37,575 bases of DNA, from assembly GCA_903860745.1 (NCBI GenBank), contig CAIORQ010000019.1:1-37575 (forward strand). The letters run 5' to 3'. The position numbers were made by a program, and so were the translations under genes. Below, piece after piece: positions 14,731-35,106 of this stretch. The DNA comes from an uncultured Actinomycetes bacterium. Its GTDB lineage: Bacteria > Actinomycetota > Acidimicrobiia > Acidimicrobiales > RAAP-2. How positions within the stretch are numbered: position 1 is the stretch's first letter; each line of letters opens with the position of its first letter. The notes under the pieces are model-generated. The model had not been told where the DNA came from. It saw nothing but the letters and a program-made list of their open reading frames with translations, and searched no databases.

Positions 14731-14804
14731 GGATCGGTGCGATCCAGGCGTCGACCGCGAACGGGACTTGGTGACGATGTTTCCGTCTATATTTGGTCTT
14801 AGTG

Positions 14805-14819
14805 TTTCATTCAGCGAAA
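14805..14819 (+). promoter_or_regulatory. IclR-type operator at the regulator's own start
   Basis: TTTCATTCAGCGAAA matches 13 of 15 bases of the perfect palindrome TTTCGTTCAACGAAA found upstream of the catabolic operon (15865-15879). TATATT at 14788-14793 could be the -10 box; the operator lies just after the implied transcript start and touches the ATG at 14819. This placement fits autorepression. Confidence 0.6.
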
Positions 14820-15709
14820 TGGTCGTGATGTCACCAAGTAAACCCTCGGGTTCGTCACCACAGTCGCCAACCCTCGCCGGCAATGCTGCTGTTGCCGAGA
14901 CCGAGGAATCCAAACTGCCGCGATCCTCGTCGGTCGATCTTCTGGTGTTGCTTGAGGAGTTGGCCAAGTTTGACCGTGTTGGGGTCACGCGTTTGAGTCG
15001 ACACCTAAGGATTCCTGTGGCCAACGCCTATCGCTCGCTACGGATATTGGAACGCACCGGCTTCGTCGAACAGCTCGCCGACACCAAGGAGTATCGACTG
15101 ACTCTTAAGTTGTTCGAACTCGGTAGCCAAGTGGCCAGTCGAACCACCATGCGCGACGTCGCGGCGGTCGAGATTGAGCGGCTGGCCCAACGTGCGGGAA
15201 CATCGGTCAACCTGGGCGTTCTAATCGACGCCTCGGTTCTCTACGTGGCCAAGGTCGAGACCGATGACCTGATCTCGATGAACATTCGTCCCGGGAGTCG
15301 CGCCCCGGCGACTTGTACGGGGATGGGCAAGGCGATGTTGGCCGCCGAATCTCGACCACTCGTGGAGATCGTCGGCGAAGGGCCCTACGTGGCGATGACC
15401 AAGTACTCAATCACGACTTTGAGCGAACTCGAGAAGGAGATTGCCATCGTGCGACGCCAAGGATACGCGACGGACCGTCAGGAGCTGCACCTGGGCCACT
15501 GGTGCGTCGCGGTGGCGATCCCGGGCACCCGTCAAGCTCAGAACGGCGCGCTCTCCATCGCTCTCTACGGGGACGAGCCGAACCACGAGACTTACGAGTA
15601 CTTCGCACGTATGGCCATGGAATCCGCAGGACGCATCGCCCGTCGCATCGGCGGCCTCGATGAGCTTCCCTCGTGGGAATCGCGACGCGCGAGTTACCCC
15701 ATGGCCTAG
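14819..15709 (+). CDS. IclR-family transcriptional regulator
   Basis: About 296 residues. The winged helix-turn-helix is near residues 38-95 (VDLLVLLEELAKFDRVGVTRLSRHL...NAYRSLRILERTGFV), followed by the IclR effector domain with SVLYVAKVETDD, RAPATCTGMGKAMLA, and the late QGYATDRQELHLGHWCVAVAIPG block. The first 37 residues are a low-complexity tail. Start is uncertain: the frame is open from TTG 14768, but a likely promoter and an operator lie between 14788 and 14819, so ATG 14819 or ATG 14828 is favoured. The opening part of the gene and its flanks are less GC-rich than neighbours. It should control the operon starting at 15895, responding to a pathway acid. Confidence 0.88.
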   Translation: MVVMSPSKPSGSSPQSPTLAGNAAVAETEESKLPRSSSVDLLVLLEELAKFDRVGVTRLSRHLRIPVANAYRSLRILERTGFVEQLADTKEYRLTLKLFELGSQVASRTTMRDVAAVEIERLAQRAGTSVNLGVLIDASVLYVAKVETDDLISMNIRPGSRAPATCTGMGKAMLAAESRPLVEIVGEGPYVAMTKYSITTLSELEKEIAIVRRQGYATDRQELHLGHWCVAVAIPGTRQAQNGALSIALYGDEPNHETYEYFARMAMESAGRIARRIGGLDELPSWESRRASYPMA

Positions 15710-16918: not shown

Positions 16919-17725
16919 ATGGAGAACACATTGATGAAGGGTGGCGTCACGGTGGTGGCGGGCGGGGGTTCGGGCATCGGACGAGCCGCCGTCGAAGTCT
17001 TCGCCGAGAGCGGTTCAGCGGTCGAGTTCTGCTCGGTCGACGCCGCGGCGAACGATGCGCTCGAGACCCAGATGACCGAACGGGGCTTCGATGTCAAGGG
17101 TACGACGCTCGACGCTTCTTCCTCCGCGGCCGTCGAGGCCTACTTGGCGGAGGTGGGCCACCGTCGCGGCCGCGTGAGCGCGCTGGTGAACTCCATCGGG
17201 ATCCAGCGCTACGGGACCTCCGAGACCACCGATGACGCCACGTGGGACGAGGTGCTCGACGTCAACTTGAAGAGCATGTTCTTGATGGTGAAGTTCACGG
17301 TGCCGCTCATCCGGGCCAACGGCGGCGGGGCGATCGTCAACGTCTCCTCGGGACAGGCCCTGGCCAGCCAACGCAACGTGGTGGCCTACACGGCGTCTAA
17401 GGGCGCCATCGTGGCGATGACCCGCGCGATGGCGGTGGACTACGCACCCGAGGGCATTCGCGTCAACTCGGTCTGTCCGGGGTCGATCGACACGCCCATG
17501 TTGCGTACCAGCGCCCGGGCCCTGAATCCCGACGACCCTGACGCGGTCATCGCCGAATGGGGCCGCGCTCACCCCATCGGGCGCGTCGGCCGGCCGCGCG
17601 AGGTCGCCAACGCCATCCTCTTCCTCGCCAGCGAACTCTCCTCCTTCGTGACCGGGACGGATCTGCGCGTGGACGGCGGTGCGTTGTCGGCCCAGCCCAT
17701 GGCGGCACCCGAGGACAAGGGTTAG
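16919..17725 (+). CDS. Short-chain dehydrogenase/reductase
   Basis: A 268-residue classical SDR. Cofactor loop AGGGSGIG (14-21), NSIG (91-94, usual NNAG), catalytic Ser144 in NVSSG, Tyr157 and Lys161 in YTASK, then SVCPGSIDTPM and the closing FVTGTDLRVDGG. The acidic residue following the second strand is not clear, so NAD versus NADP is open. GGAGGGG precedes ATG 16919 at normal spacing, and the gene follows the hydratase by 11 bases. In hexuronate pathways an SDR can act as fructuronate reductase next to mannonate dehydratase; in others it oxidises a 2-keto-3-deoxy acid to a diketo acid. Both fit this context. Confidence 0.9.
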   Translation: MENTLMKGGVTVVAGGGSGIGRAAVEVFAESGSAVEFCSVDAAANDALETQMTERGFDVKGTTLDASSSAAVEAYLAEVGHRRGRVSALVNSIGIQRYGTSETTDDATWDEVLDVNLKSMFLMVKFTVPLIRANGGGAIVNVSSGQALASQRNVVAYTASKGAIVAMTRAMAVDYAPEGIRVNSVCPGSIDTPMLRTSARALNPDDPDAVIAEWGRAHPIGRVGRPREVANAILFLASELSSFVTGTDLRVDGGALSAQPMAAPEDKG

Positions 17726-17791: not shown

Positions 17792-18787
17792 GTGGACATG
17801 ACGAACAACAAGGAGACCTTCCTGGTGACCGGGGCGGCGGGCTGTATCGGCGCCTGGGTAATCCGCCTCTTGCTGGACCAGGGCGTGTCGGTGGTGGCGA
17901 CCGACCTCAGTGATGATCTGAAACGCCTCCGTCTCATCTCGATCGGACGAGATGACGACAAGCTCGACTTCGCGACGCTCGACGTCACCTCGACTGCCGA
18001 CGTCGTGCGCGTCATCAACGAGCGCGAGATCACGCACGTGGTGCATCTGGCGGGTCTCCAGATGCCCTTCTGCGCCGCCAACCCTCCGCTGGGCGCCATG
18101 GTCAACGTGGTCGGCACGGTGAACATCTTCGAGGGCATCCGTCAGGCTGGTCGTCGCATCGGTCTGGCCTACGCGAGTAGCGCGGCCGTCTTCGGCGCGA
18201 GCTCGTACTATACGAGCGGCGTCGTGGGCGACGCTTCAGAGGCCTTCGCCGACACCTTCTACGGCGTCTACAAGGTGGCCAACGAGGGCACTGCGCGGAT
18301 CTATTCGATGTCGCACGGGATCGGCTCGGTCGGGTTGCGCCCTTTCATCATCTACGGCCCCGGACGTGACCAGGGCAAGACCTCGGACCCGACCAAGGCG
18401 GTCCTGGCGGCGGTGCGCGGTGAGGACTTCGAAATCAAGTTCGGCGGCAACTTGCTGCTGACCTACGCGCCGGACTGCGCCGACGGCTTCATCCGCGCGG
18501 CGCGCGCCGCGGCCGGCTCGGGTGACGCCGTCGTCCTCAACGTGCCCGGTCGCCGCGTGGGCGTGGCGGAGTTCGTGGCGCTGCTCGACGAGCTCCTCCC
18601 GGACTCGGCGGGCAAGGTCACCTACGTGCCGACCCCCCTCGCCGTTCCGGCGCTCCTGTCGGACTCGGCCCTCGGCGCGGTGATCGGCGAGGTGGCCAAC
18701 CGTCCCTTGCGTGATGGCCTCGCCGAGACGATCGCCATCTTTCGCGAGGCCCTCGACGCCGGACTGCTCGCCCCCTCGGACTCATGA
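17792..18787 (+). CDS. NAD-dependent epimerase/dehydratase-family (extended SDR) protein
   Basis: A 331-residue extended SDR. Nucleotide loop TGAAGCIG (13-20), then THVVHLAGLQMPF, YASSAAVFG with the catalytic Ser at 129-130, Tyr157 and Lys161 in YGVYK, and RPFIIYGPGRDQG. Relatives include sugar epimerases, uronate dehydrogenase and D-erythronate dehydrogenase; sequence alone does not choose. In this operon a dehydrogenase acting on a sugar or sugar acid is most likely. GTG 17792 has AAAGGTG at good spacing; ATG 17798 is possible. A 128-base gap to the next gene holds no feature I recognise. Confidence 0.85.
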   Translation: MDMTNNKETFLVTGAAGCIGAWVIRLLLDQGVSVVATDLSDDLKRLRLISIGRDDDKLDFATLDVTSTADVVRVINEREITHVVHLAGLQMPFCAANPPLGAMVNVVGTVNIFEGIRQAGRRIGLAYASSAAVFGASSYYTSGVVGDASEAFADTFYGVYKVANEGTARIYSMSHGIGSVGLRPFIIYGPGRDQGKTSDPTKAVLAAVRGEDFEIKFGGNLLLTYAPDCADGFIRAARAAAGSGDAVVLNVPGRRVGVAEFVALLDELLPDSAGKVTYVPTPLAVPALLSDSALGAVIGEVANRPLRDGLAETIAIFREALDAGLLAPSDS

Positions 18788-18915: not shown

Positions 18916-19959
18916 ATGCTGAGCATTGCCGAACTCCTCCAACCGACCCCCTCGCCCCTGTGGAAGTTGGTCAAGCAGGCCGGGGTCAACGAGGTCGTCA
19001 CGCTCCTCGACGGGGCGGAGCAGAACTGGCGTTGGCCCACCGGCGAGGGCACCCAGGACTACGTCCCGGTCCCCTACGTGGCGGCCCCCAAGGGTGAGCG
19101 ACCCTGGGAGTACACGGCGCTCAAGCACCTCCAGGAGCAGTACCGCGAGTACGGTCTCGAACTCGCGGTGATCGAGGACACCGCGCCCATGGACGCCATC
19201 CGCCTGGGTACCGCCGGCCGCGACGAGGCCATCGAATGGGTGGCCGACCAGATCCGCGCGATGGGCCAACTGGGCATCCGCACCCTGTGCTACAACTGGG
19301 TCGCCATCGCCAGCTGGGCGCGTACCAACAACGACATCCTCTTACGCGGCGGTGCCGTCACCTCTGGCTACGACGACGAGATCATGCAGCACGCCAAGCC
19401 CTTGATTGAGCCTGGCAGCGTCACCCACGACCAACTGTGGAAGGCCTTCGAGTACTGGCTCGACGCCATCGTGCCCGTGGCCGAGGAGTCGGGCGTGCGC
19501 ATCGCGCTGCACCCCGACGACCCGCCCATCCCCTTCGTTCGCGGCGTGCCGCGCATCATGGGTTCCCCCGAGGCCTTCGAGCGCGTCCTGGCCACGTCGT
19601 CCAGCCGCAACAGCGGCATCACCTTCTGTCAGGGCAACTTCGCCCTGATGACCGACGACGTGCCGGGGCTCATCCGCCAGCTGGGTCGCGACGGACGGAT
19701 CTTCTTCTCGCACTTCCGCGACGTGAAGGGCACGGCGTACAAGTTCTACGAGACCTTCCACGACGAGGGCCCCACGGACATGCTCGAGTGCATGCGCGCA
19801 TATCAAGACATCGGCTTCGAGGGCGTCATGCGTCCCGACCACGTGCCGGCGCTCGAGGGCGATTCCAACTCATCCTTCGGCTACTCCTCGATGGGTCGCC
19901 TCTACGCCATCGGATACATGACGGGTCTGCGCGAGGCCGTCTACGGAGAAGCCGCGTGA
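18916..19959 (+). CDS. uxuA: Mannonate dehydratase (UxuA family)
   Basis: A 347-residue TIM-barrel enzyme of normal family length. The metal ligands of the family are visible as His199 (ALHPDDPP), Cys238 (TFCQGNF), His266 (FSHFRDVKG) and Asp308 (MRPDHVP), along with FHDEGPTDM. The known reaction converts D-mannonate to 2-keto-3-deoxy-D-gluconate with Mn or Fe. ATG 18916 follows AGAAGG. The stop overlaps the next gene (GTGA). No hexuronate isomerase (UxaC) and no PfkB-type KDG kinase lie in the window, so if mannonate is the substrate the product must be handled by other kinases or by oxidation. Confidence 0.88.
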   Translation: MLSIAELLQPTPSPLWKLVKQAGVNEVVTLLDGAEQNWRWPTGEGTQDYVPVPYVAAPKGERPWEYTALKHLQEQYREYGLELAVIEDTAPMDAIRLGTAGRDEAIEWVADQIRAMGQLGIRTLCYNWVAIASWARTNNDILLRGGAVTSGYDDEIMQHAKPLIEPGSVTHDQLWKAFEYWLDAIVPVAEESGVRIALHPDDPPIPFVRGVPRIMGSPEAFERVLATSSSRNSGITFCQGNFALMTDDVPGLIRQLGRDGRIFFSHFRDVKGTAYKFYETFHDEGPTDMLECMRAYQDIGFEGVMRPDHVPALEGDSNSSFGYSSMGRLYAIGYMTGLREAVYGEAA

Positions 19960-20987
19960 CCGACTCAGCTGGTCCGCTCGAGCCGGAGACGCCCGGCGCC
20001 CGACACCTGGGCGCCGGCGTCTACCAGCTCGCCACCGACTACCCCGAAGTGTGCAACGCGCCCCTGTGGACCTACCTGATCCGTGACGCGGACAGCTTCG
20101 CCCTGATCGATCCGGGAGTCAAGAGCACCCCGGGGGCCACGCTCTTCTCAGCGGTGCGCGAGCTCGGCCTGGGGCTTGATGGAGCTCAGTCCCTCTTGGC
20201 CACCCACGGACACCCTGACCACAGTGGCGGGCTCACCGAATGGAAGGCTGCCGCACCGGGCGCGTCCATCGCGGCACCGCTGGGCGACGCGCCCTGGGTG
20301 GAGTCCTTCGAGAAGCAGTGGGTCCAGTTCTGGGACGACTATCCTGGCACGTTGGACCTCAGCGGGGAGCGTCGAGACTACGAGGAACTCTGTGTCCCCG
20401 AGCCGCGAGTGGACGAGTTACTGCGCGACGGCGACCTCGTCGCCGTCGGCAGCCGCCAGTTGCGGGTCGTGGAGACGCGGGGTCACACCTGGGGACACTG
20501 CGCCTACTTCGAGGAGGCGACCGGTTTCCTCTTCACCGGCGACGCCGTGCAGGGTCGCGGGGTGCGCAGCTCCGACGGCGACACGATGTTCTGTCCGATG
20601 TACCTGAACGCGGTCGAGATGCGCGCCGGGCTTCGTCGTCTGCGCGACCTACCCTTCACCATGCTCTGCCCCGCCCATGCCGAACCTAAGGGCCGAGAGG
20701 ATGGGCTGGCACTGCTGGATGCGAGTCTCGCCTTCATCGACGACGTCGACGCGCTGACGCGTGGCTTCGTCGATGAGTGCGGCGACGACCCCGTCATCAC
20801 CGGCGAGCTCTGTGCGCGTATCGCGGCCCTGGTGGGGGCCAAGAACCCGTTGGCCCCCCAGGTCGTCACGACGGCCCGGGCGCACCTCTACTTGCTCGCG
20901 CGCGAGGGCCGCCTCGACGCCGCGTGGCTCTCGCGCGACGTCGCGATCACGGTCCCGGCGCACCACGGTGCGCATCACGTTCACTGA
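19956..20987 (+). CDS. Metallo-beta-lactamase-fold hydrolase
   Basis: A 343-residue MBL-fold protein. Metal motif THGHPDHSGG gives His84, His86, Asp88 and His89; further ligands are in GHTWGHC, FTGDAVQG and CPAHAEP. The first strand LWTYLIRDADSFALIDPG is also typical. The last 110 residues are helical, as in the lactonase and thioesterase branches. It is translationally coupled to the mannonate dehydratase gene through the GTGA overlap, so a step near that enzyme, such as lactone or thioester hydrolysis, is the natural guess. The exact substrate cannot be read. Confidence 0.88.
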   Translation: MTDSAGPLEPETPGARHLGAGVYQLATDYPEVCNAPLWTYLIRDADSFALIDPGVKSTPGATLFSAVRELGLGLDGAQSLLATHGHPDHSGGLTEWKAAAPGASIAAPLGDAPWVESFEKQWVQFWDDYPGTLDLSGERRDYEELCVPEPRVDELLRDGDLVAVGSRQLRVVETRGHTWGHCAYFEEATGFLFTGDAVQGRGVRSSDGDTMFCPMYLNAVEMRAGLRRLRDLPFTMLCPAHAEPKGREDGLALLDASLAFIDDVDALTRGFVDECGDDPVITGELCARIAALVGAKNPLAPQVVTTARAHLYLLAREGRLDAAWLSRDVAITVPAHHGAHHVH

Positions 20988-21004: not shown

Positions 21005-21877
21005 ATGAAGTTGGCAGCGTTATATACCGGCGAGGGCGAGCGTACGAGCCTGCACCTACTGGTCGGCGAGAAGTACGTGGCGGTTGACCGCCTGGTGGAC
21101 GAGGGCTCGCATCTGCGCGGACTGGCTGACGTGGGGGCCCTCTTCGCCCTTGGCGACGAGGCCCTCGAGGAGTTGCGATTGCTCGAAGCCGCGGCCGCCG
21201 AAGTCGACGGCGCGACCGAGGTGCGTCTGGCGCCCCCGGTCACTCGGCCGTCCAAGATCGTCTGCGTCGGACTGAACTACTTGGCCCACATCGAAGAGAC
21301 GAACAACGTCAAGCCCGAGCGCATCGTGCTCTTCTCGAAGTACCCCTCGAGTCTGGTGGGCGACGGCGCCGAGGTGCGGCGCCCCGCCATCACCTCCAAA
21401 CTCGACTACGAAGGTGAGTTGGCGGTGGTCATCGGTCGACGAACCCGCGCCGTGAGCGTCGCCGACGCCTTGTCGGCAATCGGCGGCTTCACCATCATCA
21501 ACGACGTCTCGGCCCGCGACCTCCAATCCGCCGAGGGTCAGTGGGTCCGGGGCAAGGCGCTCGACACCTTCGCACCGCTGGGACCCGTGGTTCTGGACGC
21601 GGCCTCGGTACCCGAGATCGGTGACCTGCGGATCGTGACGCACGTCAATGGCGAGGTGCGCCAGAACGACCTCTGCTCGCTGATGATCACGCCCGTGGCC
21701 GAGCTCATCTCCTACATCTCGGCGTACATCACCCTCGAACCCGGCGACATCATCGCCACCGGAACGCCCCAGGGCGTCGCGAGCGGCATGGACACTCCGG
21801 TTTACCTCGAGCCGGGCGACGAGATGTCCGTCACCATCGAGGAGATCGGCGTCCTGCACAGCCGCGTGACGGGTTGA
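21005..21877 (+). CDS. Fumarylacetoacetate hydrolase-family protein (acylpyruvase/diketo-acid hydrolase type)
   Basis: A 290-residue FAH-family enzyme: an N-terminal domain to about residue 75, then KIVCVGLNYLAHIEE, LFSKYPSSLVGDG, the metal ligands Glu136 and Glu138 in DYEGELAVVIG and Asp167 in NDVSARDLQ, GQWVRGKALDTFAPLGP, and IATGTPQGVASGM. Members cleave or hydrate 2,4-diketo and related acids, for example 2,4-diketo-3-deoxy-L-fuconate to pyruvate plus lactate. With an SDR in the same operon, oxidation of a 2-keto-3-deoxy acid followed by cleavage here is a reasonable hypothesis. GAAGGAG precedes ATG 21005. It is only distantly related to the MhpD-type protein at 15972. Confidence 0.9.
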   Translation: MKLAALYTGEGERTSLHLLVGEKYVAVDRLVDEGSHLRGLADVGALFALGDEALEELRLLEAAAAEVDGATEVRLAPPVTRPSKIVCVGLNYLAHIEETNNVKPERIVLFSKYPSSLVGDGAEVRRPAITSKLDYEGELAVVIGRRTRAVSVADALSAIGGFTIINDVSARDLQSAEGQWVRGKALDTFAPLGPVVLDAASVPEIGDLRIVTHVNGEVRQNDLCSLMITPVAELISYISAYITLEPGDIIATGTPQGVASGMDTPVYLEPGDEMSVTIEEIGVLHSRVTG

Positions 21878-23410: not shown

Positions 23411-24246
23411 TGCTCCTGCGTGGCAGCTCCTTCTTGTCCGAGGCGCGCGAACAGAGCCGAGCGGTGCCCGCCTTCGTCGCCTACAACTTGGAGATGGTCC
23501 AGGGGATCGTCGCGGCGGCCGAGGCGACCGAAAAGCCGGTACTGATCATCGCCGGTTCGAGCGCCTTCGCCTTGGCCGGTCTCCAGCCCCTGGCGAGCAT
23601 TGCGCTCGCCGCCGCGCAAGAGTCCACCGTCGCGATCGGCGTGCACCTCGACCACTGCCGCCGTGTCGACGAGATCGAGACCTGCCTGGCGCTGGGCTAC
23701 TCCTCGGTGATGTTCGACGGCGCGCAGCTGTCGTACGTGGAGAACCTCACGCAGACCTCGAGCGTGGTGGGCGCCGCCCACGGCGTGGGTGCGTGGGTGG
23801 AGGCAGAGTTGGTCGGCATCGCCGGCGACGAGGACAGGTCGAGCGACGCCCTGGCCACGGAAATGACCGATCCCGGACAGGCCGCCGATTTTGTGTCCCG
23901 CACGGGGGTTGACGCCTTGGCCGTGGCGGTTGGCAACGTGCACGGCTTCACGAGCCGTCCTCCCCAGATCGACCTCGCCCGCCTCGAGGAGATCGCGCGG
24001 CGGGTAACGGTGCCCCTCGTGCTGCACGGTGCTAGCGGGCTCAGCGACGAGGTGCTCGCGGGCTGTGTCGCTCGGGGAGTTGCCAAGGTCAACGTCAACG
24101 CGGAACTGCGGCGCGCCTACCTGGCGGCGATGACGTCGAGCACCGCCGCCGCCGCGGGCGACTTGGTGACGAGCTTGGGCGCAGCCCGAGACGCGGTGGC
24201 CGCGACGGCGACGAGGATCATCCGCGTCTTGGACCCGACTGGCTGA
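23410..24246 (+). CDS. Class II (zinc) aldolase, fructose-bisphosphate/tagatose-bisphosphate type
   Basis: A 278-residue metal-dependent TIM-barrel aldolase. Asp81 and His82 in GVHLDHC (catalytic Asp and zinc His), SVMFDGAQL, VEAELVGIAGDED, zinc ligands in GNVHGF and LVLHGASGL, then VNVNAELRRAY. The family cleaves ketose-1-phosphates or bisphosphates to DHAP plus an aldehyde. It is shorter than class IIA FBA and resembles GatY/KbaY-like enzymes. One-base overlap with the acid-sugar kinase gene suggests it cleaves that kinase's phosphorylated product. Confidence 0.9.
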   Translation: MLLRGSSFLSEAREQSRAVPAFVAYNLEMVQGIVAAAEATEKPVLIIAGSSAFALAGLQPLASIALAAAQESTVAIGVHLDHCRRVDEIETCLALGYSSVMFDGAQLSYVENLTQTSSVVGAAHGVGAWVEAELVGIAGDEDRSSDALATEMTDPGQAADFVSRTGVDALAVAVGNVHGFTSRPPQIDLARLEEIARRVTVPLVLHGASGLSDEVLAGCVARGVAKVNVNAELRRAYLAAMTSSTAAAAGDLVTSLGAARDAVAATATRIIRVLDPTG

Positions 24247-24298
24247 GGCGTGTGGCTGTCAACGACCCGGTCTCGACCGGAACGAGGAATGAGGAGCT

Positions 24299-25219
24299 AT
24301 GAGTTCAGCGGTGCACAGGGAGTCGGGTGGGTTCGGTGAGCAGATGGTGGTGGCGGTCATCGGACTGGGCGCGATGGGCGCGCCCATGGCCACTCGTCTA
24401 GCGGGGATCTTCGAGGTCCGCGGCTGTGATCCCGTCGCGGACAACGCCGTGCGCGCCCGCGAGGGTGGCGTCCTCGTCACGGCGACCCCGCGGGAGGCGG
24501 CCACGGGGGCCGACGTGGTGCTGCTGGCCGTGCGAACCCTCGAACAGGTCGTGGCCGCGCTCTTCGACGACGACGGAGCGGTGACGGGTCTGGTGCCCGG
24601 CGCGGTGGTGATCCTTACCAGCACGGTCGGCGCGCCCGGCGCCCGCGCGATCGCCGAGCGGCTCGCGCCCTACGGGATTGCCTTGGTGGACGTGCCGGTG
24701 AGTGGGGGACCGCTGCGCGCCGGACGGGGTGACCTCCTCGTGATGGTGAGCGGTGCAGCCTCGGCGGTCGCGACGGTTCGCCCGGTGCTCGAACGGATGG
24801 CCTCATCGATCGCCGAAGTGGGCGAGAGGGCTGGTGACGGCCAGGCGATGAAGACGGTCAACCAGTTGCTGTGCGGCGTGCACATCGCAGCCGCCGCCGA
24901 GGCCCTGGCCCTGGCCAAGGGACTGGGGATCGACCCCCAGGCGGCGCTCGACGCGCTTGGGGCGGGCGCTGCGGCGTCGTTCATGCTGTCCAATCGCGGT
25001 CCGCGGATCGTCCAGGCCCTAGCCGGCGAGGACCCCGAAGTCCTCTCGAGGGAGGACATCTTCGTCAAGGACATGGGGATCGTGACCGACGCGGGCCGCG
25101 GCGCGCACGTAGCGCTACCCGTGGCGGCGGCGGCCGAACAGCTCTACCAGCTGGGGGCCGCGGCCGGGTTGGCGTCACGCGATGATTCGACGATCGCGAC
25201 CGTCCTTCTGCGACCCTAG
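24299..25219 (+). CDS. Beta-hydroxyacid dehydrogenase (3-hydroxyisobutyrate/L-threonate dehydrogenase type)
   Basis: A 306-residue NAD-dependent enzyme. Rossmann loop IGLGAMGAPMA (21-31), substrate segment DVPVSGGPLRAGRGDLLVMVSG (131-152), catalytic Lys185 in KTVNQLLCG, and FVKDMGIVTDAG. The closest known context is LtnD beside a DUF1537 kinase in four-carbon acid operons, where it oxidises the C2 hydroxyl. GAGGAG precedes ATG 24299. About fifteen residues precede the Rossmann strand, so a start at the internal ATG (MVVAVIGLG) is possible. It is the last gene of the plus-strand operon and converges on the minus-strand one after 22 bases. Confidence 0.9.
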   Translation: MSSAVHRESGGFGEQMVVAVIGLGAMGAPMATRLAGIFEVRGCDPVADNAVRAREGGVLVTATPREAATGADVVLLAVRTLEQVVAALFDDDGAVTGLVPGAVVILTSTVGAPGARAIAERLAPYGIALVDVPVSGGPLRAGRGDLLVMVSGAASAVATVRPVLERMASSIAEVGERAGDGQAMKTVNQLLCGVHIAAAAEALALAKGLGIDPQAALDALGAGAAASFMLSNRGPRIVQALAGEDPEVLSREDIFVKDMGIVTDAGRGAHVALPVAAAAEQLYQLGAAAGLASRDDSTIATVLLRP

Positions 25220-25241
25220 GATCGTCGTTTCGCTCGATGGT

Positions 25242-26267
25242 TCACGTGAAGCGAGGGGACCCGTCTGGATTCATCCCCTGGACGAGTCGGGTGTCGTGGA
25301 ACAGCGACGTCTCAATGACGATCTCCCGACATTGCCGCGCGGCGAAAGTGACGCCGGGCTGTCGCGTCGCGCGCGCGTGGCTCATGCCGTGCCCGGGGAC
25401 GGTGGTGGCGGGTTCGACGGCGAGGGCGTAGGCCCGCTTGAACCAGGGCCAGCCCTCTCCGCAGTGCACCTCCTGCCAGAGCCAGGCCTTGTCGAAGACC
25501 TCCCCTGACCAGCGAAAACTAACTCCGAGTCCCCGGTGGGGGTTGGTGATGGCGAAGAAGGGCTCGTCGGGGTCGGTCAGGTACGCGAGCAGGGCGCGTG
25601 GTCGGTCGGGACCCGGTATGACGCGTAGGTCCAACTCCGTCCCGTCGATGGTGCGCACGACGGGCCACGCGTGGCGCGAGTCGGCTGCCAGCAGGGTGCC
25701 CGGGCTGAGGTCGTCAGCCACGACGGCGCGGAACCCGGTGGCGAGTAGGCACCCCTCCTCCAGGAAGGGCGCGCCGAACGCCGGATGATGCGACCACATG
25801 ACTTCGAGATCCTCGTCGGAGTCGTTGGTCACGAGTTCGTGCAACGTGAAGGTTGATCCGCTCAGCTCGATCTCGCGACGCACCCGCAGGGGGACGGAGA
25901 ACAGGCTGGTCTCGAGGACCGCGTGGCACGGACTGTGTTCGAGGACTTCCCACGCCAGTAGCGCGGCTTCGCCGTGGTAGCCCCACGACGTGCCGTTTTC
26001 GACGCACTCGTCGCCACCGTTGGGCAAGAGGACCTGCCAGCCTCCCGGATAGGCCTCCATCCAGCGTTGCATCGACGTGGCGGCGCGTAGCCAGGGACCG
26101 GGCTCGCGGACGCCCCACGGGGCCTTGAGCAGAACGTCGACGCCGGAAGCTCGGTCGATCATCTCGTAGATGTCCGCCCCCTTGTCGGGCAGGAGCGTGA
26201 CGGTCATCTCTTCGCTGCTCAGGGTGAGGAGTCGCGACGCGGCGGGACGCGGGACGCGGGCGTTCAC
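25242..26267 (-). CDS. Aldose 1-epimerase (galactose mutarotase-like) protein
   Basis: A 341-residue beta-sandwich protein. LLPDKGADIYEMIDRASGVDVLLK opens the fold, GGWQVLLPNGGDECVENG follows, and WSHHPAFGAPFLEEG carries the His pair expected of mutarotases, with the later FFAITNPHRGLGVSFRW. The family interconverts sugar anomers. GTG 26267 overlaps the stop of the KDPG-aldolase-type gene (GTGA), so it is the last gene in that operon. Preferred sugar is unknown. Confidence 0.82.
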   Translation of the reverse strand: MNARVPRPAASRLLTLSSEEMTVTLLPDKGADIYEMIDRASGVDVLLKAPWGVREPGPWLRAATSMQRWMEAYPGGWQVLLPNGGDECVENGTSWGYHGEAALLAWEVLEHSPCHAVLETSLFSVPLRVRREIELSGSTFTLHELVTNDSDEDLEVMWSHHPAFGAPFLEEGCLLATGFRAVVADDLSPGTLLAADSRHAWPVVRTIDGTELDLRVIPGPDRPRALLAYLTDPDEPFFAITNPHRGLGVSFRWSGEVFDKAWLWQEVHCGEGWPWFKRAYALAVEPATTVPGHGMSHARATRQPGVTFAARQCREIVIETSLFHDTRLVQGMNPDGSPRFT

Positions 26268-26911
26268 GGCTGGCCCCCGGCCGGTGCGGCGCGGGCGGCG
26301 ACGATGTCCTCGTAGCGCTGACGCAGGGCCGCCGCGTGCTGGGTCTGTCGGGCCAGGTCCCCGTCGGCGAGCGCGTCCTTGTCGAGGAGTTCCGATCCCA
26401 CGCAGATGCCCTCGGCCCCGGCATCGAGATAGTTGCCGAAGTCGGCGATGTGCACGCCGCCGGAGACCACCGAACGCAGTTGGGGGAACGGTCCGCGCAA
26501 GGTGCGGAGGTAGTCGGCCCCGCCCATCACGTCGATGGGGAAGATTTTGATCACGCGCACCCCGATGCGCAGGGCGGCGTGGACCTCCCCGGGCGTCGCG
26601 GCCCCGCCAACGTAGTCGAGTCCCGCCTCGCGGGCGACGGCGAGGACGTCCGCGTCGGTCACCGGCGAGACCAGGAAGGTGGCGCCGGCGTCGAGTGCCG
26701 CCGCCGCCTGCGAGACGTCGAGAACCGTGCCGGCCCCCACACGGGCGCCCGTCGCCGAGCACTCTTCGATGATGTCCAGCGCACCCGGGGTCGTCATGGT
26801 GATCTCGATGAGGTCGATGCCGGCGTCGACGAAGGAGCGCGCGACCAACCCGGCGAGTCGTCTGGTTGGTTGACGAATCACGGCGACGAGACCGTTGACG
26901 TCGCGGGTCAT
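26264..26911 (-). CDS. eda: 2-dehydro-3-deoxyphosphogluconate (KDPG) aldolase family
   Basis: A 215-residue class I aldolase. Arg13 in AVIR, Glu36 in IEITMTTP, GAGTVLD, and the Schiff-base Lys122 in IKIFPIDVMGG match the Eda family. Known chemistry is cleavage of KDPG or 2-keto-3-deoxy-6-phosphogalactonate to pyruvate and glyceraldehyde-3-phosphate. ATG 26911 has GGAGG ten bases upstream; GTG 26920 would give a GTGA overlap with the kinase gene and cannot be excluded. It could act on 2-keto-3-deoxygluconate made by the mannonate dehydratase at 18916 once phosphorylated. Confidence 0.9.
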   Translation of the reverse strand: MTRDVNGLVAVIRQPTRRLAGLVARSFVDAGIDLIEITMTTPGALDIIEECSATGARVGAGTVLDVSQAAAALDAGATFLVSPVTDADVLAVAREAGLDYVGGAATPGEVHAALRIGVRVIKIFPIDVMGGADYLRTLRGPFPQLRSVVSGGVHIADFGNYLDAGAEGICVGSELLDKDALADGDLARQTQHAAALRQRYEDIVAARAAPAGGQP

Positions 26912-26916
26912 AGTGC

Positions 26917-28389
26917 TCACTCCTCCTCGTGGCGCTGTTGCCACTCTAGTGAGGCGGCGCTGGCGTCTTTGTAGAGACGTAGGAGACGCCGCGACTCCTC
27001 GACCTGCTCCGCGCGGGGTTCGCGCAATCGGCTCTCGTCGGCCAGGAGTCGGCTCAGCGTCGCCAAGTCCCCTCCGGCGGCCGCGGCCGCCAACATGGCC
27101 GCGCCGCGCGCGGACATTTCCTGGTCGTGGTGCAGTTGCAGCGCAAGCCCCGTACCGCGCAGGGCCATGTCCTCCCAGAGCGGGTCGCCCACGCCCCTCC
27201 CCACGGTCTCCACCAGCCGAAGCGGATCGCCACAGGCGTTCTCCACCAGTTCCAAGATGTGACGGGCGCACAAGAGCACGGACAGCACCACCGACAAAGC
27301 GATTTCCGCGGGCCCGTGGGTCTCGTTGAGGTTGGCGAAGAGAGCGCGTACCGAGGTGTTCCACAGAGGAGCCCGTTCGCCCGATAGGTAGGGCACGAAG
27401 ACGGGGATGGAACCACTCGCCTGCGACGCCAGCGCCGAGAGATCCTCCACACGGCACCCGAGCAGACGCGCCACCCAGGCGAGCGACGCTCCCCCCGACT
27501 GCGTGGGTCCGTAGAGGAGAGGTTTCGGCGAGCAGCTATGGGGAACGTTGAAGAGGCCCGGGGACCGGGCTCCGTCGTCGTTGACAGCGGCGCCGACGAT
27601 GCTGGACGTGCCAGTGAAGAGGAAGGCGCTGGTGTTCGCGAAGCAGCCAGACGCCAGGATCTCGGCCAGGGCGTCGCTCCAGCCCACACTCACGGGCGTG
27701 CCCGCGGCGAGTCCGGTGGCCGCCGCCGCTGCGGGGGTGACGACACCGAGCGGGTCCCAGGCGTTGCGCAGGTCGGGGCAGTGTTCGCCGTCCCAGCCGC
27801 AGGCGGCGAGAACCGTCGAGGCGGGCGCGACGGTGGCCACGTTGCACAGACCCTTGGAGGACCAGGGATCAGACGCCATCGCATCGGTCAGGTAGCAGCC
27901 CACGTAGTCCTTGGCCTGCAGGACGGTCCGAGTGCGCCGGCGCGTCTCGCCCTCGTGGCGAGCGACCCACGAGAGCCGGGCGGGGATGTTTGACGCCGAC
28001 CACGCCAGGTTCGTGCCGAAGAGGGGTTCGGGAGGACCCAGGCTGCGCGACAGCTCGGCGGCCTCGCGGGAGGCTCTGGTGTCCTGCCACGTGATGGCCG
28101 GACGAACCGGGAGTCCGTCCTCGTCGACGAAGACGATGGTGGGAGTTTGGCCGCACAGGCCCACCGCGTCGGGCGGTGAGGCGAGGTCCATGGCCGCGAT
28201 CGCCCGAGCCAGCGCGCTCACCCACTCGGCCGGGTCCTGTTCCGCCTCGCCCGCGCTACCTCGCCGGGTTGGGTAGGGGACCGACGCCGTGGCCCGGACG
28301 ACCCCTAGCTCGTCGAGGAGCACGGTGCGCAGGGAACCGGTGCCGACGTCCACACCTAGGAAGCGTGCGGGAGCGCTCCGCGTGCTCAT
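26917..28389 (-). CDS. FGGY-family carbohydrate kinase (xylulokinase-like)
   Basis: A 490-residue kinase. FLGVDVGTGSLRTVLLD is the first phosphate loop, followed by VGLCGQTPTIVFVDEDG, ITWQDTRA, AKDYVGCYLT, GWSDALAEILASG, FTGTSSIVG, and VPYLSGERAPLWN (FGGY signature region). Substrate is a sugar or polyol; xylulokinases are the nearest by layout, but that does not fix the substrate. ATG 28389 is preceded by GGGAG; a GTG at 28425 would overlap the ROK gene and add 12 residues. It is about 28 bases from the ROK gene. Confidence 0.88.
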   Translation of the reverse strand: MSTRSAPARFLGVDVGTGSLRTVLLDELGVVRATASVPYPTRRGSAGEAEQDPAEWVSALARAIAAMDLASPPDAVGLCGQTPTIVFVDEDGLPVRPAITWQDTRASREAAELSRSLGPPEPLFGTNLAWSASNIPARLSWVARHEGETRRRTRTVLQAKDYVGCYLTDAMASDPWSSKGLCNVATVAPASTVLAACGWDGEHCPDLRNAWDPLGVVTPAAAAATGLAAGTPVSVGWSDALAEILASGCFANTSAFLFTGTSSIVGAAVNDDGARSPGLFNVPHSCSPKPLLYGPTQSGGASLAWVARLLGCRVEDLSALASQASGSIPVFVPYLSGERAPLWNTSVRALFANLNETHGPAEIALSVVLSVLLCARHILELVENACGDPLRLVETVGRGVGDPLWEDMALRGTGLALQLHHDQEMSARGAAMLAAAAAGGDLATLSRLLADESRLREPRAEQVEESRRLLRLYKDASAASLEWQQRHEEE

Positions 28390-28417
28390 GGCCACAACTC
28401 CCGATCGAGAATGGTCG

Positions 28418-29431
28418 TCATTCACCGAGCACCGCGTGACTGAGCTGACGGGGGATCGTCGCGAAGGACTCGCCGATCAGGGAAACCGCCAGCGCGGAGT
28501 AGTCGCTGATCAGCTCCGAGAGCTGAGCGGCGACGACGCGGCAGCTCGCCGCGGACGCGCGGAGGGCCTCGCGCGACAACGCCGCCTCCATTGAGAGTCT
28601 GAGCAACGCCTCTTGGCGCGTGAAGATGCCGCCGATGACGATCACCTCGGGGTTGAGCAGGTCGACGAGCTGGGCCAGCGTCGAACCCAGCCGTTCGCCC
28701 ACGTCGGCCCAGAGTTCGAGCGCTATCGGGTCACCGGCCCGGGCGGCGTCCGCGGCATCGCGTGCGGTGAGGGTTGCGAGGTCCTCCTCGCTGCGGGCGA
28801 GAAGCGTGTCGCGTCCGGCCGCCCAGGCGTCGCGGGCGCGCTGCGCCGCCCAACACGCGATGCCGCCGCCACTACAGAAACCCTCGAAGGAGCCGTACTT
28901 GCCGTAGCCCCAGGGTCCCTCGTCGGCCAGGCGCCAATGCCCCACCTCGCCCGCGAGTCCGAGGGCGCCACCGTGAAGTTGGCCGCCCAGGATGAGTCCC
29001 GCCCCCATACCGGTGCCCATGGTCAAAAAGACCGACGTCCGGCTCCCCCGGGCCGCCCCCCACGACCATTCGGCCAGCGCTCCCGCACTGGCGTCGTTCA
29101 TCAGCCGCGCGCGCACCCCCCAGCGTTTCACGAAGGGGGTGACGACGTCGAAGTCATCCCAACCAGGGAGGTTGGGCGGCGAGAGGACGAGACCGCGGCC
29201 CTCGTCGAGCGGTCCGCCGCAGACGATGCCGATCCTCGCTAAGGTCGCGTCGGGGAGATCAGAAAGCAGGTCGGCGAGCATCGCCGAGAGGCTCTGCACC
29301 ATCTCCGTCGCGGAGCCACGCGTCGGCACCTCGCCTCGGCCGTGCCACCGCACGTACTCATTCTCGCAGGTGGCGACCGCCACTGAGCACTTGGTGCCGC
29401 CGATGGCCACGCACGCGAAGGCTCGCGTCAT
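28418..29431 (-). CDS. ROK-family sugar kinase lacking the zinc cysteines
   Basis: A 337-residue ROK protein without an N-terminal DNA-binding domain, so a kinase and not a repressor. AIGGTK (9-14, usual DIGGTK), catalytic Asp113 in LMNDASAGALAEW, GTGMGAGLILGGQLHGG, and GEVGHWRL are clear. The usual zinc motif C-x-C-G-x-x-G-C is replaced by W-G-Y-G-K-Y-G-S at 174-181, so all three cysteines are missing although His165 stays. The start ATG 29431 overlaps the SIS gene stop (ATGA). It probably phosphorylates a hexose or amino sugar; the sugar is unknown. Confidence 0.87.
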   Translation of the reverse strand: MTRAFACVAIGGTKCSVAVATCENEYVRWHGRGEVPTRGSATEMVQSLSAMLADLLSDLPDATLARIGIVCGGPLDEGRGLVLSPPNLPGWDDFDVVTPFVKRWGVRARLMNDASAGALAEWSWGAARGSRTSVFLTMGTGMGAGLILGGQLHGGALGLAGEVGHWRLADEGPWGYGKYGSFEGFCSGGGIACWAAQRARDAWAAGRDTLLARSEEDLATLTARDAADAARAGDPIALELWADVGERLGSTLAQLVDLLNPEVIVIGGIFTRQEALLRLSMEAALSREALRASAASCRVVAAQLSELISDYSALAVSLIGESFATIPRQLSHAVLGE

Positions 29432-30078
29432 CCGAAGAAGGCTGCTTCGATGGCGAGACACAGCGAGTGGTAGACAATCTGGTGGTTGTGCTGGATGTGG
29501 GGCGTGTCGGCGCCGGGAACGGCGATGACGACGTCGGCGAGGTCCGTGACCGATCCTCGTCCTGGCCCGGTCAACGCGATGCTCACCAGTCCCCGCGCTT
29601 TCGCCGTGCGAAGGGCGTGCACGACGTTGCGTGAATTGCCCGACGTGCTCAGCGCCCACAGCACGTCACCGGGGCGACCGTAGGCCATCACCTGCTGGGC
29701 GAAGATGAGGTCCCCCCCCTGGTCGTTGGCGATGGCGGTCAGCAGCGCCGATTGGCTCACCAAGGGCCAGACCGGCAGGCCGCGCGCCAGGGCGTCTCCG
29801 AGGTATCCGTCGTCACCCGCGTGGAGCAGCGACTGCTTCTCCACGTCGTCGAGCGGTCGAGGAATCGCGCAGGGCTTGGCGAGTTCCCCGGCGATGTGCT
29901 CGGCGTCGGACGCACTACCGCCGTTGCCGCAGACAAGGACCTGACGCCCGTCTCGCAAAGCGCTCTCGAGCCTCGCGTAGGCCTCCTCGATCGAGGCGCG
30001 AGCCGATGTCAGCGAAGGATTCTCGGAGTACAACTCGTGCCAGAGGTGAGAAACCACGTCGTGATGGGAGGTCGTCAT
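29428..30078 (-). CDS. SIS-domain phosphosugar isomerase (GmhA/DiaA-like)
   Basis: A 216-residue single SIS domain. CGNGGSASDAEHIAGEL is the phosphosugar-binding hallmark of GmhA, with LLTAIANDQG, STSGNSRNVVHAL and the late HIQHNHQIVYHSLC whose His matches the GmhA active-site region. GmhA isomerises sedoheptulose-7-phosphate; other members only bind phosphosugars. ATG 30078 lacks a ribosome site but lies eight bases after TACGAT, fitting a leaderless first gene; a GTG at 30120 is less likely. It heads the minus-strand operon and is coupled to the ROK kinase. Confidence 0.86.
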   Translation of the reverse strand: MTTSHHDVVSHLWHELYSENPSLTSARASIEEAYARLESALRDGRQVLVCGNGGSASDAEHIAGELAKPCAIPRPLDDVEKQSLLHAGDDGYLGDALARGLPVWPLVSQSALLTAIANDQGGDLIFAQQVMAYGRPGDVLWALSTSGNSRNVVHALRTAKARGLVSIALTGPGRGSVTDLADVVIAVPGADTPHIQHNHQIVYHSLCLAIEAAFFG

Positions 30079-30086
30079 CGGCGACG

Positions 30087-30092
30087 ATCGTA
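30087..30092 (-). promoter_or_regulatory. Candidate -10 box of the minus-strand sugar operon
   Basis: TACGAT (minus strand, 30092-30087) fits TANNNT and ends eight bases before ATG 30078. The implied transcript starts at or next to the ATG. A clear -35 is not visible. Confidence 0.4.
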
Positions 30093-30192
30093 CCGCACTT
30101 CGGCGGGGATCGTTGTCCACGTGGGGGCCGCGCAGGCAGTAAAGCCCAGGAATTTCAAGGAAAAATGCACCTCGACAAATTTCAACAGGTAG

Positions 30193-30221
30193 TTGAAGAA
30201 CTCAACATTCAGTGTTAAGGT
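30193..30221 (+). promoter_or_regulatory. Promoter of the amino-acid transporter operon
   Basis: TTGAAG (30193-30198), 17 bases, TAAGGT (30216-30221), with TG one base before the -10 (extended -10). The predicted transcript starts near 30228, about 70 bases before the ATG at 30300. The region 30140-30220 is AT-rich compared with its surroundings. Confidence 0.6.
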
Positions 30222-30299
30222 CGCCCAGAGTGGGAATGACATCCCAGCTCTTGAGGTGACGGTCAGAGTGGCGGGTCACTGGAATTGAAGGGGGAACAT

Positions 30300-31274
30300 A
30301 TGTTCAAAGCGAAGATGCGCAAGGTGGGCTTGCCCGTCTTGGTGGCGGGACTCGTTGGTCTGGGAATGGCACCGCTCGCCGGTGCATCTGCGGGGGCAGT
30401 GAACAACCCGGGTCAGGCCAACAAGATCTCCAACGGCTACGTCGCCAAGGTCAAGGAGAACGTCGCACTGCACAAGATGCTGCCGACCTACATCCAGAAG
30501 AAGGGCTACATCCTCATTGGGGCCCAGATGGAGAACGCGCCGGACGACTTCTTCTCCGGCACCTCCCAGGTCGCCGTCGGCTTCGAGGTCAACCTCGCGC
30601 ACGCGATCGGCAAGGTGCTGGGTGTGAACGTCAAGTACTTGCAGTTGCCGGTCTGGAGCTCGATCGTCCCCGCGGTCCAAGACGGCCGTGTCGACATGTC
30701 GATGACCGCGATGAACGACCGAGTGGCGCGTGAGGCGCTGATCAACTTCGTCGACTATCTCGTCGACGGCATCGGTATTCTCGTTAAGGGCGGCAACCCT
30801 GAGAACATCACTGGACCGTCGAGCCTCTGTGGCAAGAACGTGGCGGATTCGGCGGGCACGACCCAGGAGTCCTACCTACAGTCGCTCAACGCGGCGGGCG
30901 GACTCTGCGCGTCGAACCCCATCACCGAGGTTCTGGCGGCAAGTACGGCTCAAGAGCTGGCTGACCTGGCGACCAACCGCGCGGACGCGGTCTTGAACGA
31001 CAACATCACTGACGCCTTCGACGCGCAGACCATGGGTGGCGCCGTCGCGGCGGTCGACTACCCCGCGATTGAGAGCGGTCCCTACGGCATCGGTGTCCCG
31101 AAGAACGACGTCCACCTCTTGAAGGCGGTCTACGGCGCCCTGGGGCTGCTGATGAAGGGTGGTGCGAACAGCACGTACAAGGAGATCCTCAACGCCTGGA
31201 ACGTCGGATCAGTGGCCATTCCGGCCCCAGTCATCAACGGATGCGCCAAGCCGACCTACGCGCAGTTCTGCTAG
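30300..31274 (+). CDS. Polar amino-acid ABC transporter substrate-binding protein
   Basis: A 324-residue family 3 binding protein. Signal peptide: KAKMRK, core VGLPVLVAGLVGLGMAPLA, cleavage after GASA. There is no lipobox cysteine, unusual for an actinobacterial binding protein, so how it is retained is unclear. The mature part has YILIGAQMENAPDDFFSG, VGFEVNLAHAIGKVLGV, PAVQDGRVDMSMTAMNDRVAREALINFVDYL and ATNRADAVLNDN, all family 3 blocks. ATG 30300 has AGGGGG at ideal spacing; a TTG at 30285 is less likely. The ligand is probably an amino acid or related amine. Confidence 0.9.
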   Translation: MFKAKMRKVGLPVLVAGLVGLGMAPLAGASAGAVNNPGQANKISNGYVAKVKENVALHKMLPTYIQKKGYILIGAQMENAPDDFFSGTSQVAVGFEVNLAHAIGKVLGVNVKYLQLPVWSSIVPAVQDGRVDMSMTAMNDRVAREALINFVDYLVDGIGILVKGGNPENITGPSSLCGKNVADSAGTTQESYLQSLNAAGGLCASNPITEVLAASTAQELADLATNRADAVLNDNITDAFDAQTMGGAVAAVDYPAIESGPYGIGVPKNDVHLLKAVYGALGLLMKGGANSTYKEILNAWNVGSVAIPAPVINGCAKPTYAQFC

Positions 31275-31332
31275 CACTTCACCCGGGTCCATCCACCGTC
31301 GAAGAGAAAGTTAGAAGATCTTGGAAGAGTTG

Positions 31333-32247
31333 ATGGATTCGTCGAAGTTCAGTGGCGAGATACCCATCGTCCCTCTGCGAAAGTGGGGACGATGGGTATC
31401 CGCCATCATCATCGTGCTGTTGTTCATCGCGCTGATCGTGAGCCTGCGTCATGCCCAGATCGTGTGGGGCGACGTACCGAAGTTCTTCACGTACCGCACG
31501 ATGATCCAGGGCCTCTATATGACGGTTTTGTTGACGCTTGCGTGCATGGCCACCGGCATCGTCCTCGGGGTCATCGTCGCGATCATGCGCCGCTCCACAA
31601 ACCCCGTAATGTCGTGGATGGCGTGGCTGTACATCTACGTCTTCCGCGGTCTGCCGGCCCTGTTGCAGCTCTTCATCTGGTACAACCTGGCCCTCGCCTT
31701 CAAGACGATTGGCATCCCGGGTCTCTTCAGCGTCTCGACCAATGCCGTTATGACGTCTTTCGTGGTCGGTGTTCTGGGACTGGGCCTCAACGAGAGCGCG
31801 TATTACGCCGAGATCGTCCGCGCCGGCTTCAACAGCGTGGACCACGGCCAGGTCGAGGCCGCCGCCTCTATTGGGATGAGGCCCTCGCAGTCAATGCGCC
31901 GCGTTATCCTCCCTCAGGCGATGAGGGTAATCATCCCCCCCACGGGCAACGACTTCATCAACATGATCAAGGGAACCTCCCTGGCGTCGACCATCGGGGT
32001 CCATGAGTTGCTGCTGTCGGCCCAGAACATCTATTCGGCCAATTTCCGGATCATGGAAGCACTGATGTCCGCGGCCCTGTGGTACATGGTGCTGGTTTCG
32101 GTGGCCAGCATCGGCCAGTACTTCATCGAGAAGAAGTTCGCCGCGGATCGATCCAACCCCGCGTCGATGAAGAAGGTCATGGCCACGTCGCTCAATCCCA
32201 ACGGTTTCTTCCGTCGTTTCGTGGGGCGCAGCGAGGTGCCGGCATGA
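31333..32247 (+). CDS. Polar amino-acid ABC transporter permease
   Basis: About 304 residues with five or more membrane helices. A first helix [16 protein letters not shown] precedes the transport domain; [15 protein letters not shown] and the EAA loop [23 protein letters not shown], which docks the ATPase, are diagnostic of the HisMQ/GlnP type. A single permease gene implies a homodimer. Start is uncertain between ATG 31333, TTG 31330 and TTG 31321; GGAAGAG lies close before. A long hairpin covers codons 9-23. The stop overlaps the ATPase gene (ATGA). Confidence 0.9.
31359..31400 (+). repeat. Perfect 15-bp inverted repeat inside the permease gene start
   Basis: GATACCCATCGTCCC (31359-31373) and GGGACGATGGGTATC (31386-31400) are exact reverse complements with a 12-base loop. 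In mRNA this makes a very stable hairpin about 25 bases after the permease start. It has no T-run, so it is not a typical terminator. Confidence 0.85.
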
Positions 32248-33017: not shown

Positions 33018-33020
33018 GCC

Positions 33021-34151: not shown

Positions 34152-34207
34152 CGTCGACGGTCGCGGGACGTGTGGGAAGTCCCGGTCTGGAAGCAGGAGG
34201 ATTGCGC

Positions 34208-35074: not shown

Positions 35075-35106
35075 CTCCTCGGTCACGCAGCATGAGAGGA
35101 CACGAC

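Follow-up and report, generated by a model that had tools for sequence, protein, structure and literature searches.

A two-module operon of sugar kinases, isomerase and Eda-type aldolase facing an acid-sugar operon in an uncultured Actinomycetes bacterium, with a proposed FGGY-family 2-keto-3-deoxy-aldonate kinase

We analysed an operon of five minus-strand genes on contig CAIORQ010000019.1 of an uncultured Actinomycetes bacterium (assembly GCA_903860745.1, Acidimicrobiales lineage RAAP-2). The window, that is the whole stretch of 37,575 nucleotides (nt) under analysis, is the entire contig C19 of the source genome, which comprises 2.13 Mb in 110 contigs and is 96.6% complete. Between positions 30078 and 25242 the operon encodes, in this order, an SIS-domain isomerase, a ROK-family kinase, an FGGY-family kinase, an Eda-type aldolase and a DUF4432 protein, and it is a composite of two modules: module A comprises FGGY, Eda and DUF4432, and module B comprises SIS and ROK. 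We put forward, as a tentative reading that falls a little short of probable, that module A joins the pathway of the facing acid-sugar operon, with FGGY as a kinase of the 2-keto-3-deoxygluconate (KDG) type, and that module B is a separate pair acting on a manno-configured aldose. The genes of the operon and a candidate operator beside it are as follows.

29428..30078, minus strand: SIS-domain sugar-phosphate isomerase, GmhA-like; SIS_2 PF13580 (70.8 bits, cut-off 27) and PF01380 over cut-off; 24-residue insert after residue 75
28418..29431, minus strand: ROK-family sugar kinase; PF00480, 175.6 bits (cut-off 22.9; scanned with 50 extra upstream residues)
26917..28389 (alternative GTG start 28425), minus strand: FGGY-family kinase, proposed 2-keto-3-deoxy-aldonate kinase; PF00370/PF02782
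26264..26911, minus strand: Eda-type aldolase for 2-keto-3-deoxy-6-phosphogluconate (KDPG) or 2-keto-4-hydroxyglutarate (KHG); TIGR01182, 160.7 bits (cut-off 156.05); PF01081, 138.5 bits
25242..26267, minus strand: DUF4432 protein, proposed aldose mutarotase; PF14486, 60.2 bits (cut-off 32.5)
30192..30206, no strand: GTTGA-N5-TCAAC inverted repeat, candidate operator in the divergent SIS/importer region

Profile matches and coordinates bear out the original prediction of a five-gene operon of these families, and likewise its convergence on an acid-sugar operon, the stops of the two operons facing each other across 22 nt (25220-25241). Tight packing by ATGA/GTGA overlaps, as had also been proposed, is found at two of the four junctions, where SIS and ROK have a common ATGA and Eda and DUF4432 a common GTGA; it is not found at the other two, where 5 nt separate FGGY from Eda, and ROK and FGGY are separated by 28 nt if FGGY starts at ATG 28389, whereas a start at GTG 28425 makes them overlap by 8 nt. 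The facing operon runs on the plus strand in the order IclR-type regulator, FAH1, short-chain dehydrogenase/reductase (SDR), extended SDR, UxuA-type dehydratase, metallo-beta-lactamase-fold (MBL) hydrolase, FAH2, DUF1537 kinase, class II aldolase and LtnD-like dehydrogenase.

The assignment of module A to the facing pathway draws on a paralogous super-locus on another contig of the source genome (C1:3343-27426), which has an ortholog in a congener (G078:C27). Both loci hold IclR, FAH1, SDR, extended SDR, UxuA, MBL, FAH2, mutarotase, FGGY and Eda genes, with identities to the window (C1/G078) of 77-78% for UxuA, 71-72% for SDR and for FAH1, 67% for the extended SDR, 63-64% for MBL and for FAH2, 58-59% for IclR, 56% for DUF4432, 55-56% for FGGY and 36-38% for Eda. 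We searched 99 genomes of the genus and set subfamily membership of FGGY, UxuA and DUF4432 at E<=1e-80. At this threshold FGGY is present in three copies (window, C1 and G078) in two of the 99 genomes, and eight further genomes match at 6e-31 to 1e-37 only, with 28-32% identity. UxuA is found in the same two genomes and at the same three loci; two random pairs among 99 would coincide with a probability of 2e-4, relatedness ignored. DUF4432 is again restricted to these two genomes, with distant matches in G008 (1.6e-19) and G104 (1.2e-15), and G078 carries a further copy (44%) beside ATP-binding cassette (ABC) importer genes. Samples of the class (395 genomes, E<=1e-80) and phylum (396 genomes, E<=1e-60), with at most three candidates scored per genome and G078 evidently outside both, returned FGGY from the source genome only.

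FGGY is encoded opposite the UxuA cassette and converges on its end in each of the three loci, and thus the facing arrangement is kept throughout; in the window, Eda and DUF4432 sit between FGGY and the end of the longer facing operon. Because C1 and G078 again combine FGGY, the mutarotase and an Eda with the UxuA cassette, the two facing operons are linked beyond mere proximity, which supports the assignment of these three genes to the facing UxuA pathway. An apparent TAG within the C1 FGGY match is the gene's own stop, past which the match runs, and the C1 gene is not broken. The super-locus also holds an enolase gene beside an APH-fold kinase gene, both in C1 (L126:8336-10617) and in G078 (L128:7736-10026); the enolase was scanned in C1 only, where it scores 434 bits against a cut-off of 300, and the two enzymes could turn glycerate into phosphoenolpyruvate if the product of the kinase is 2-phosphoglycerate.

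Module B is distributed differently. SIS relatives at E<=1e-20 occur in four of the 99 genus genomes (the source genome, G034, G033 and G011), each time with ROK adjacent. In the compared stretches of G034, G033 and G011, relatives of FGGY, Eda and DUF4432 are absent, the G034 contig ending ~0.8 kb after ROK, and the FGGY subfamily was not found in these three genomes at E<=1e-80. SIS-ROK is therefore a module separate from FGGY/Eda/DUF4432, and the notion that all five genes serve one pathway is not supported, since SIS-ROK stands without the other three in three other genomes of the genus. An amino-acid-type ABC importer and a class V aminotransferase diverge from SIS-ROK in the window, G034 and G011. 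In the window these genes form one run with a YheO-type regulator and RidA (30300-35493). The cluster in G033 contains a glycoside hydrolase family 38 (GH38) alpha-mannosidase, sugar-type ABC genes and split transketolase genes.

The place of FGGY in module A was approached from its aldolase neighbour. Eda-type aldolases cleave KDPG or KHG; the lysine of the VIKIFP motif in the window's Eda, presumably the Schiff-base lysine, aligns with a lysine in two alignments, in each case to a designed protein derived from a KDPG aldolase. Edd (6-phosphogluconate dehydratase) gave three matches in the source genome, none of them over cut-off. The genome thus lacks a recognisable Edd, the mark of the classical Entner-Doudoroff pathway, and KDPG for Eda should therefore come from KDG via a kinase. 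As the original prediction had stated, no PfkB gene is present in the window (nine matches genome-wide, none on C19). We rejected FGGY as a gluconokinase feeding Edd and Eda, given its score against TIGR01314 (99.5 bits, cut-off 648.55) and the absence of Edd over cut-off. ROK is not our first choice as KDG kinase, as it adjoins SIS in the genus and no relative of it was found near the UxuA cassette in the stretches of C1 and G078. The original prediction, in which the aldolase would finish the mannonate branch once one of the two kinases phosphorylates KDG, is thus partly supported, with FGGY, Eda and mutarotase recurring beside the UxuA cassette and no Edd over cut-off, and FGGY rather than ROK is the candidate kinase.

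That FGGY is proposed as a candidate KDG-type kinase follows mainly from a comparison with two Embleya plasmids (L156:8310-17034 and L157:10488-20036), on which FGGY's place is held by a PfkB kinase, and is thus an argument from gene position. Both plasmids carry a DUF4432 relative (43%) and are 90-96% alike in these genes, hence one independent case. An SDR and an SMP-30-like gene precede DUF4432, PfkB follows it, an ABC importer lies upstream and a UxuA-like gene is on the other strand. The best matches of the PfkB are KDG kinases (156.1 bits, cut-off 440; one plasmid scanned) and that of the SDR is an aldose dehydrogenase (247.9 against 341); the SMP-30-like call is a reading of the sequence, with no NCBIfam match at 1e-15. 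The set reads as a probable oxidative, semi-phosphorylative sugar pathway. For DUF4432 itself, which has no NCBIfam match at 1e-3, a role as mutarotase is suggested by one solved-structure match, weak at E 3.2e-4, to 3ty1, a hypothetical aldose 1-epimerase, and by the annotation of five of the 14 listed plasmid relatives as aldose 1-epimerase.

The facing operon supplies candidates for the remaining steps. Its genes up to FAH2 are given here, and its tail (21956-25219) is formed by the DUF1537 kinase, the class II (fructose-bisphosphate-type) aldolase and the LtnD-like gene, which resembles threonate dehydrogenase.

14768..15709, plus strand: IclR-type regulator; PF01614, 103.9 bits; 58.6% paralog in C1
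15972..16907, plus strand: FAH1, 2-keto-4-pentenoate-hydratase-like; HpaH, 90.3 bits (cut-off 351.5); no match in a Pfam scan at 1e-6; 72% C1 paralog
16919..17725, plus strand: SDR dehydrogenase, possibly aldose 1-dehydrogenase or 2-keto-3-deoxy-acid 4-dehydrogenase; second-best match PRK06398 aldose dehydrogenase, 233.9 bits (cut-off 341); 72% C1 paralog
17798..18787, plus strand: extended SDR/epimerase-type dehydrogenase; PF01370, 96.2 bits; D-erythronate dehydrogenase model, 73 bits (cut-off 325); 67% C1 paralog
18916..19959, plus strand: UxuA-type mannonate dehydratase; PRK03906, 207.3 bits (cut-off 191); TIGR00695, 149.6 bits (below cut-off, 199.55); 77% copies in C1 and G078
20007..20987 (start uncertain), plus strand: MBL-fold hydrolase, proposed lactonase; PF00753, 75.7 bits; 64% C1 paralog
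21005..21877, plus strand: FAH2, proposed 2,4-diketo-3-deoxy-acid hydrolase, from its best NCBIfam match and its His/Glu spacing

The best NCBIfam match of FAH2 is a 2,4-didehydro-3-deoxy-L-rhamnonate hydrolase (199.5 bits, cut-off 500), and its solved relatives include 8gsr, seventh among 24. The three genes of the tail have no match at 1e-15 in the compared C1 and G078 stretches. UxuA relatives on three plasmids among 562 matched records (two haloarchaeal, one Martelella) have no FGGY annotated, and no relative of the window's FGGY was found in G590, a genome with a UxuA relative.

Taken together, the pathway that we propose would open with DUF4432 interconverting the anomers of an aldose. 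The SDR or the extended SDR would oxidise the aldose to a lactone, the MBL enzyme would open the lactone, and UxuA would dehydrate the resulting aldonate to a 2-keto-3-deoxy acid. Two exits could follow: (i) the acid could be oxidised at C4 and then hydrolysed by FAH2, or (ii) FGGY could phosphorylate it and Eda split the product into pyruvate and glyceraldehyde 3-phosphate, in which case FGGY would take the part that a PfkB KDG kinase usually plays. In module B, ROK would phosphorylate a manno-configured aldose, either mannose or manno-heptose, and SIS would isomerise the product to a ketose phosphate; the two modules would then handle related sugars.

Several observations weigh against this reading. 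KDG-kinase-like PfkB genes are encoded elsewhere in the genome: one on C17 directly before an Eda (225.1 bits, cut-off 440), and one in the C1 super-locus (210.8 bits, cut-off 400), which lies ~5.4 kb past FAH1 and is separated from the C1 Eda by ~18 kb. FGGY therefore need not be the KDG kinase, and the original prediction, which had named a dedicated KDG kinase elsewhere with independent induction as grounds for its own refutation, is put halfway in question by these two genes. The C1 PfkB is 39% identical to that of Embleya, and the C1 locus thus holds both kinase types. FGGY adjoins Eda in the window only, one of the three loci; in C1 the two are 5.6 kb apart. The C1 and G078 loci look orthologous, leaving two independent arrangements. 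Finally, the top-scoring matches of FGGY are xylulokinases, and the class II aldolase of the facing operon could serve a ketose phosphate instead.

These last points lead to the strongest alternative, which we regard as possible though doubtful, namely that FGGY is an ordinary ketose kinase for xylulose, ribulose or a 6-deoxyketose, that the ketose comes from a dehydrogenase or from uptake, and that Eda is served by a PfkB elsewhere, such as those on C1 and C17. Both FGGY domains are over cut-off (PF00370, 117.7 bits against 28.8; PF02782, 71.4 against 27), the best family score is that for xylulokinase XylB (TIGR01312, 223.3 bits), the best solved relative is the xylulose kinase 2itm, and the class II aldolase could cleave the ketose phosphate. 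The xylulokinase score is nevertheless well under its cut-off of 380.25, as FGGY is under that of every NCBIfam model matched at 1e-3. In place of the GQMHG and GDNAAG of 2itm, the window's FGGY has GQTPT and SDALAE, in loops that we take to touch the sugar; all three FGGY copies keep these stretches, save for SDALSE in G078. The class II aldolase is missing from the C1 and G078 stretches although FGGY is present there, and among the operon's remaining four genes none matched a family of free-sugar isomerases. A review of the FGGY family (PMC3245297) lists nine functions in its Table 1, with gluconate as the sole acid and without a 2-keto-3-deoxy-acid kinase, and the titles and abstract openings of papers found in an open-licence library describe no FGGY KDG kinase.

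The two operons also differ in their regulatory sequences. The arms of GTTGA-N5-TCAAC are identical in the window, G034 and G011 (L032:6998 and L034:7296), with a variable spacer, and the repeat sits inside a longer conserved stretch between the SIS and importer genes. It is the sole exact match in the window, where three more occur with one mismatch, and exact matches are also found in three unrelated loci (L075, L108 and L128). Upstream of the facing operon lies a different, AT-rich palindrome (15839-15863), a possible IclR operator; by eye, C1 and G078 show TTTC/GAAA-type repeats at the corresponding position. Because the palindrome upstream of one operon is unlike that of the other, the sequence gives no support for common induction or for one regulator of both operons, a further point against joining them. 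Within 25100-30400 no sigma-70-type promoter match was found, and terminator-like sites number three, no more than in shuffles (mean 2.1).

SIS scores 134.2 bits against GmhA (TIGR00441, cut-off 209.45) and ROK 142.3 bits against glucokinase (TIGR00744, cut-off 260.35), both below cut-off, and ROK is under the cut-off of every NCBIfam model matched at 1e-3. The insert columns of SIS hold 19-27 residues in 73 of 76 aligned proteins and one residue in the two Deinococcus copies and the Azospirillum copy; the majority of these 76 were retrieved with peptides from the window's SIS, which biases the sample towards it. Among the 78 loci L037-L114, several of them truncated at the end of a contig, seven have ROK next to SIS. 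GH38 occurs in three of the compared loci, always together with ROK-SIS (in G033 and on two Deinococcus plasmids, the latter chosen for side-by-side SIS and ROK matches), and this context suggests mannose as the substrate; the titles and abstract openings of papers found in an open-licence library do not describe SIS-ROK with an alpha-mannosidase as a pathway. Two further candidates for a mannose context were set aside: a GH2 enzyme beside SIS-ROK in L086, taken as beta-mannosidase, was dropped, as its matches are of beta-galactosidase and beta-glucuronidase type and all fall far short of cut-off, and a protein in L058, taken as type I mannose-6-phosphate isomerase, has no Pfam match at 1e-6 and was counted neither way.

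In another reading, all five genes might form one unit for a single sugar, for example with mannose entering fructose 6-phosphate via ROK and SIS and KDPG via mannonate. The single, tightly packed operon, the GH38 genes and the score of UxuA over the mannonate dehydratase subfamily cut-off are consistent with such a unit, as is the lack of matches in the source genome to PF20511 and PF10432, two mannose-6-phosphate isomerase families, in a search confined to these two. An oxidative mannose route has been proposed in Thermoplasma (PMC6901390). On a Spirochaete contig (L047:2734-6651) ROK-SIS neighbours a KDG-kinase-like PfkB and an Eda on the opposite strand, which is the window's combination with PfkB as the kinase. 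The modules are, however, found apart within the genus, and in G034 and G011, where SIS-ROK accompanies the importer, the only FGGY relatives are distant ones (28-29%) on other contigs, so that we consider a single-sugar unit unlikely.

In a further alternative SIS-ROK serves heptose salvage, with ROK making manno-heptose 7-phosphate and SIS converting it to sedoheptulose 7-phosphate for transketolase. Nucleoside triphosphate (NTP) transferase, HAD and GHMP kinase genes form the gene set of GDP-heptose synthesis, and the neighbours of SIS (98 proteins, 39 loci) often match these families (15 NTP transferase, 14 HAD, 13 GHMP kinase, as against 5 ROK), which points to heptose rather than mannose and also counts against a mannose-based form of our proposal. 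One ROK-SIS relative lies beside an RfaE-like kinase (130 bits, cut-off 345). Because of these neighbour families and of this kinase, manno-heptose is as possible as mannose for the substrate of SIS-ROK. The split transketolase genes in the G033 cluster would fit salvage; the GH38 context, in contrast, points to mannosides, and no transketolase is among the annotated window genes (14768-35493). We give heptose salvage as such only a small share of our credence.

An assembly or binning artefact at the module junction of this metagenome-derived contig is highly improbable: the genome is in 110 contigs and SIS and the FGGY subfamily co-occur in no other of the 99 genus genomes, but ROK and FGGY lie 28 nt apart or overlap, and GC (0.66-0.71) and third-position GC (0.82-0.88) are even over all five genes.

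A bolder form of our proposal, which we hold to be improbable, has the FGGY subfamily as a 2-keto-3-deoxyaldonate kinase that replaces PfkB in a duplicated locus, with SIS-ROK sending the same manno sugar along a second, phosphorylating route; if true, one operon would hold both fates of the sugar. Were FGGY to act on 2-keto-3-deoxy acids, a large kinase family would gain a sugar-acid function, and genes annotated as xylulokinase beside acid-sugar operons would need re-examination. The locus may illustrate the duplication of a sugar pathway and its rewiring by a swap of kinase family, and the enzyme set is small and directly assayable.

The component enzymes are familiar. The semi-phosphorylative Entner-Doudoroff-type pathway uses a PfkB KDG kinase and Eda. 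The two facing operons resemble it in encoding a candidate mutarotase, dehydrogenase, lactonase, UxuA-type dehydratase, kinase and Eda, and differ in that the kinase in place is FGGY instead of PfkB. With the GmhA family the window's SIS has the SIS_2 domain in common, and 13 of the 16 solved SIS relatives listed are named phosphoheptose isomerase; it departs from that family in its 24-residue insert against 2xbl, its sub-cut-off score and its ROK partner. FGGY has both domains of its family and scores best with xylulokinases, whereas the proposed role on 2-keto-3-deoxy acids lies outside the nine functions in Table 1 of the family review (PMC3245297). Like the oxidative mannose route of Thermoplasma (PMC6901390), the facing pathway would combine an aldohexose dehydrogenase and a mannonate dehydratase leading to KDG; the Thermoplasma route, unlike the one proposed here, ends in a KDG aldolase without phosphorylation. 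With the non-phosphorylative Route III of pentoses and 6-deoxyhexoses, as described in PMC6336799, the facing operon shares an SDR and an FAH-family hydrolase with the same His/Glu spacing (His95/Glu98 in FAH2, His83/Glu86 in the Route III hydrolase), and it differs from that route in its UxuA-type dehydratase and in the added FGGY/Eda branch.

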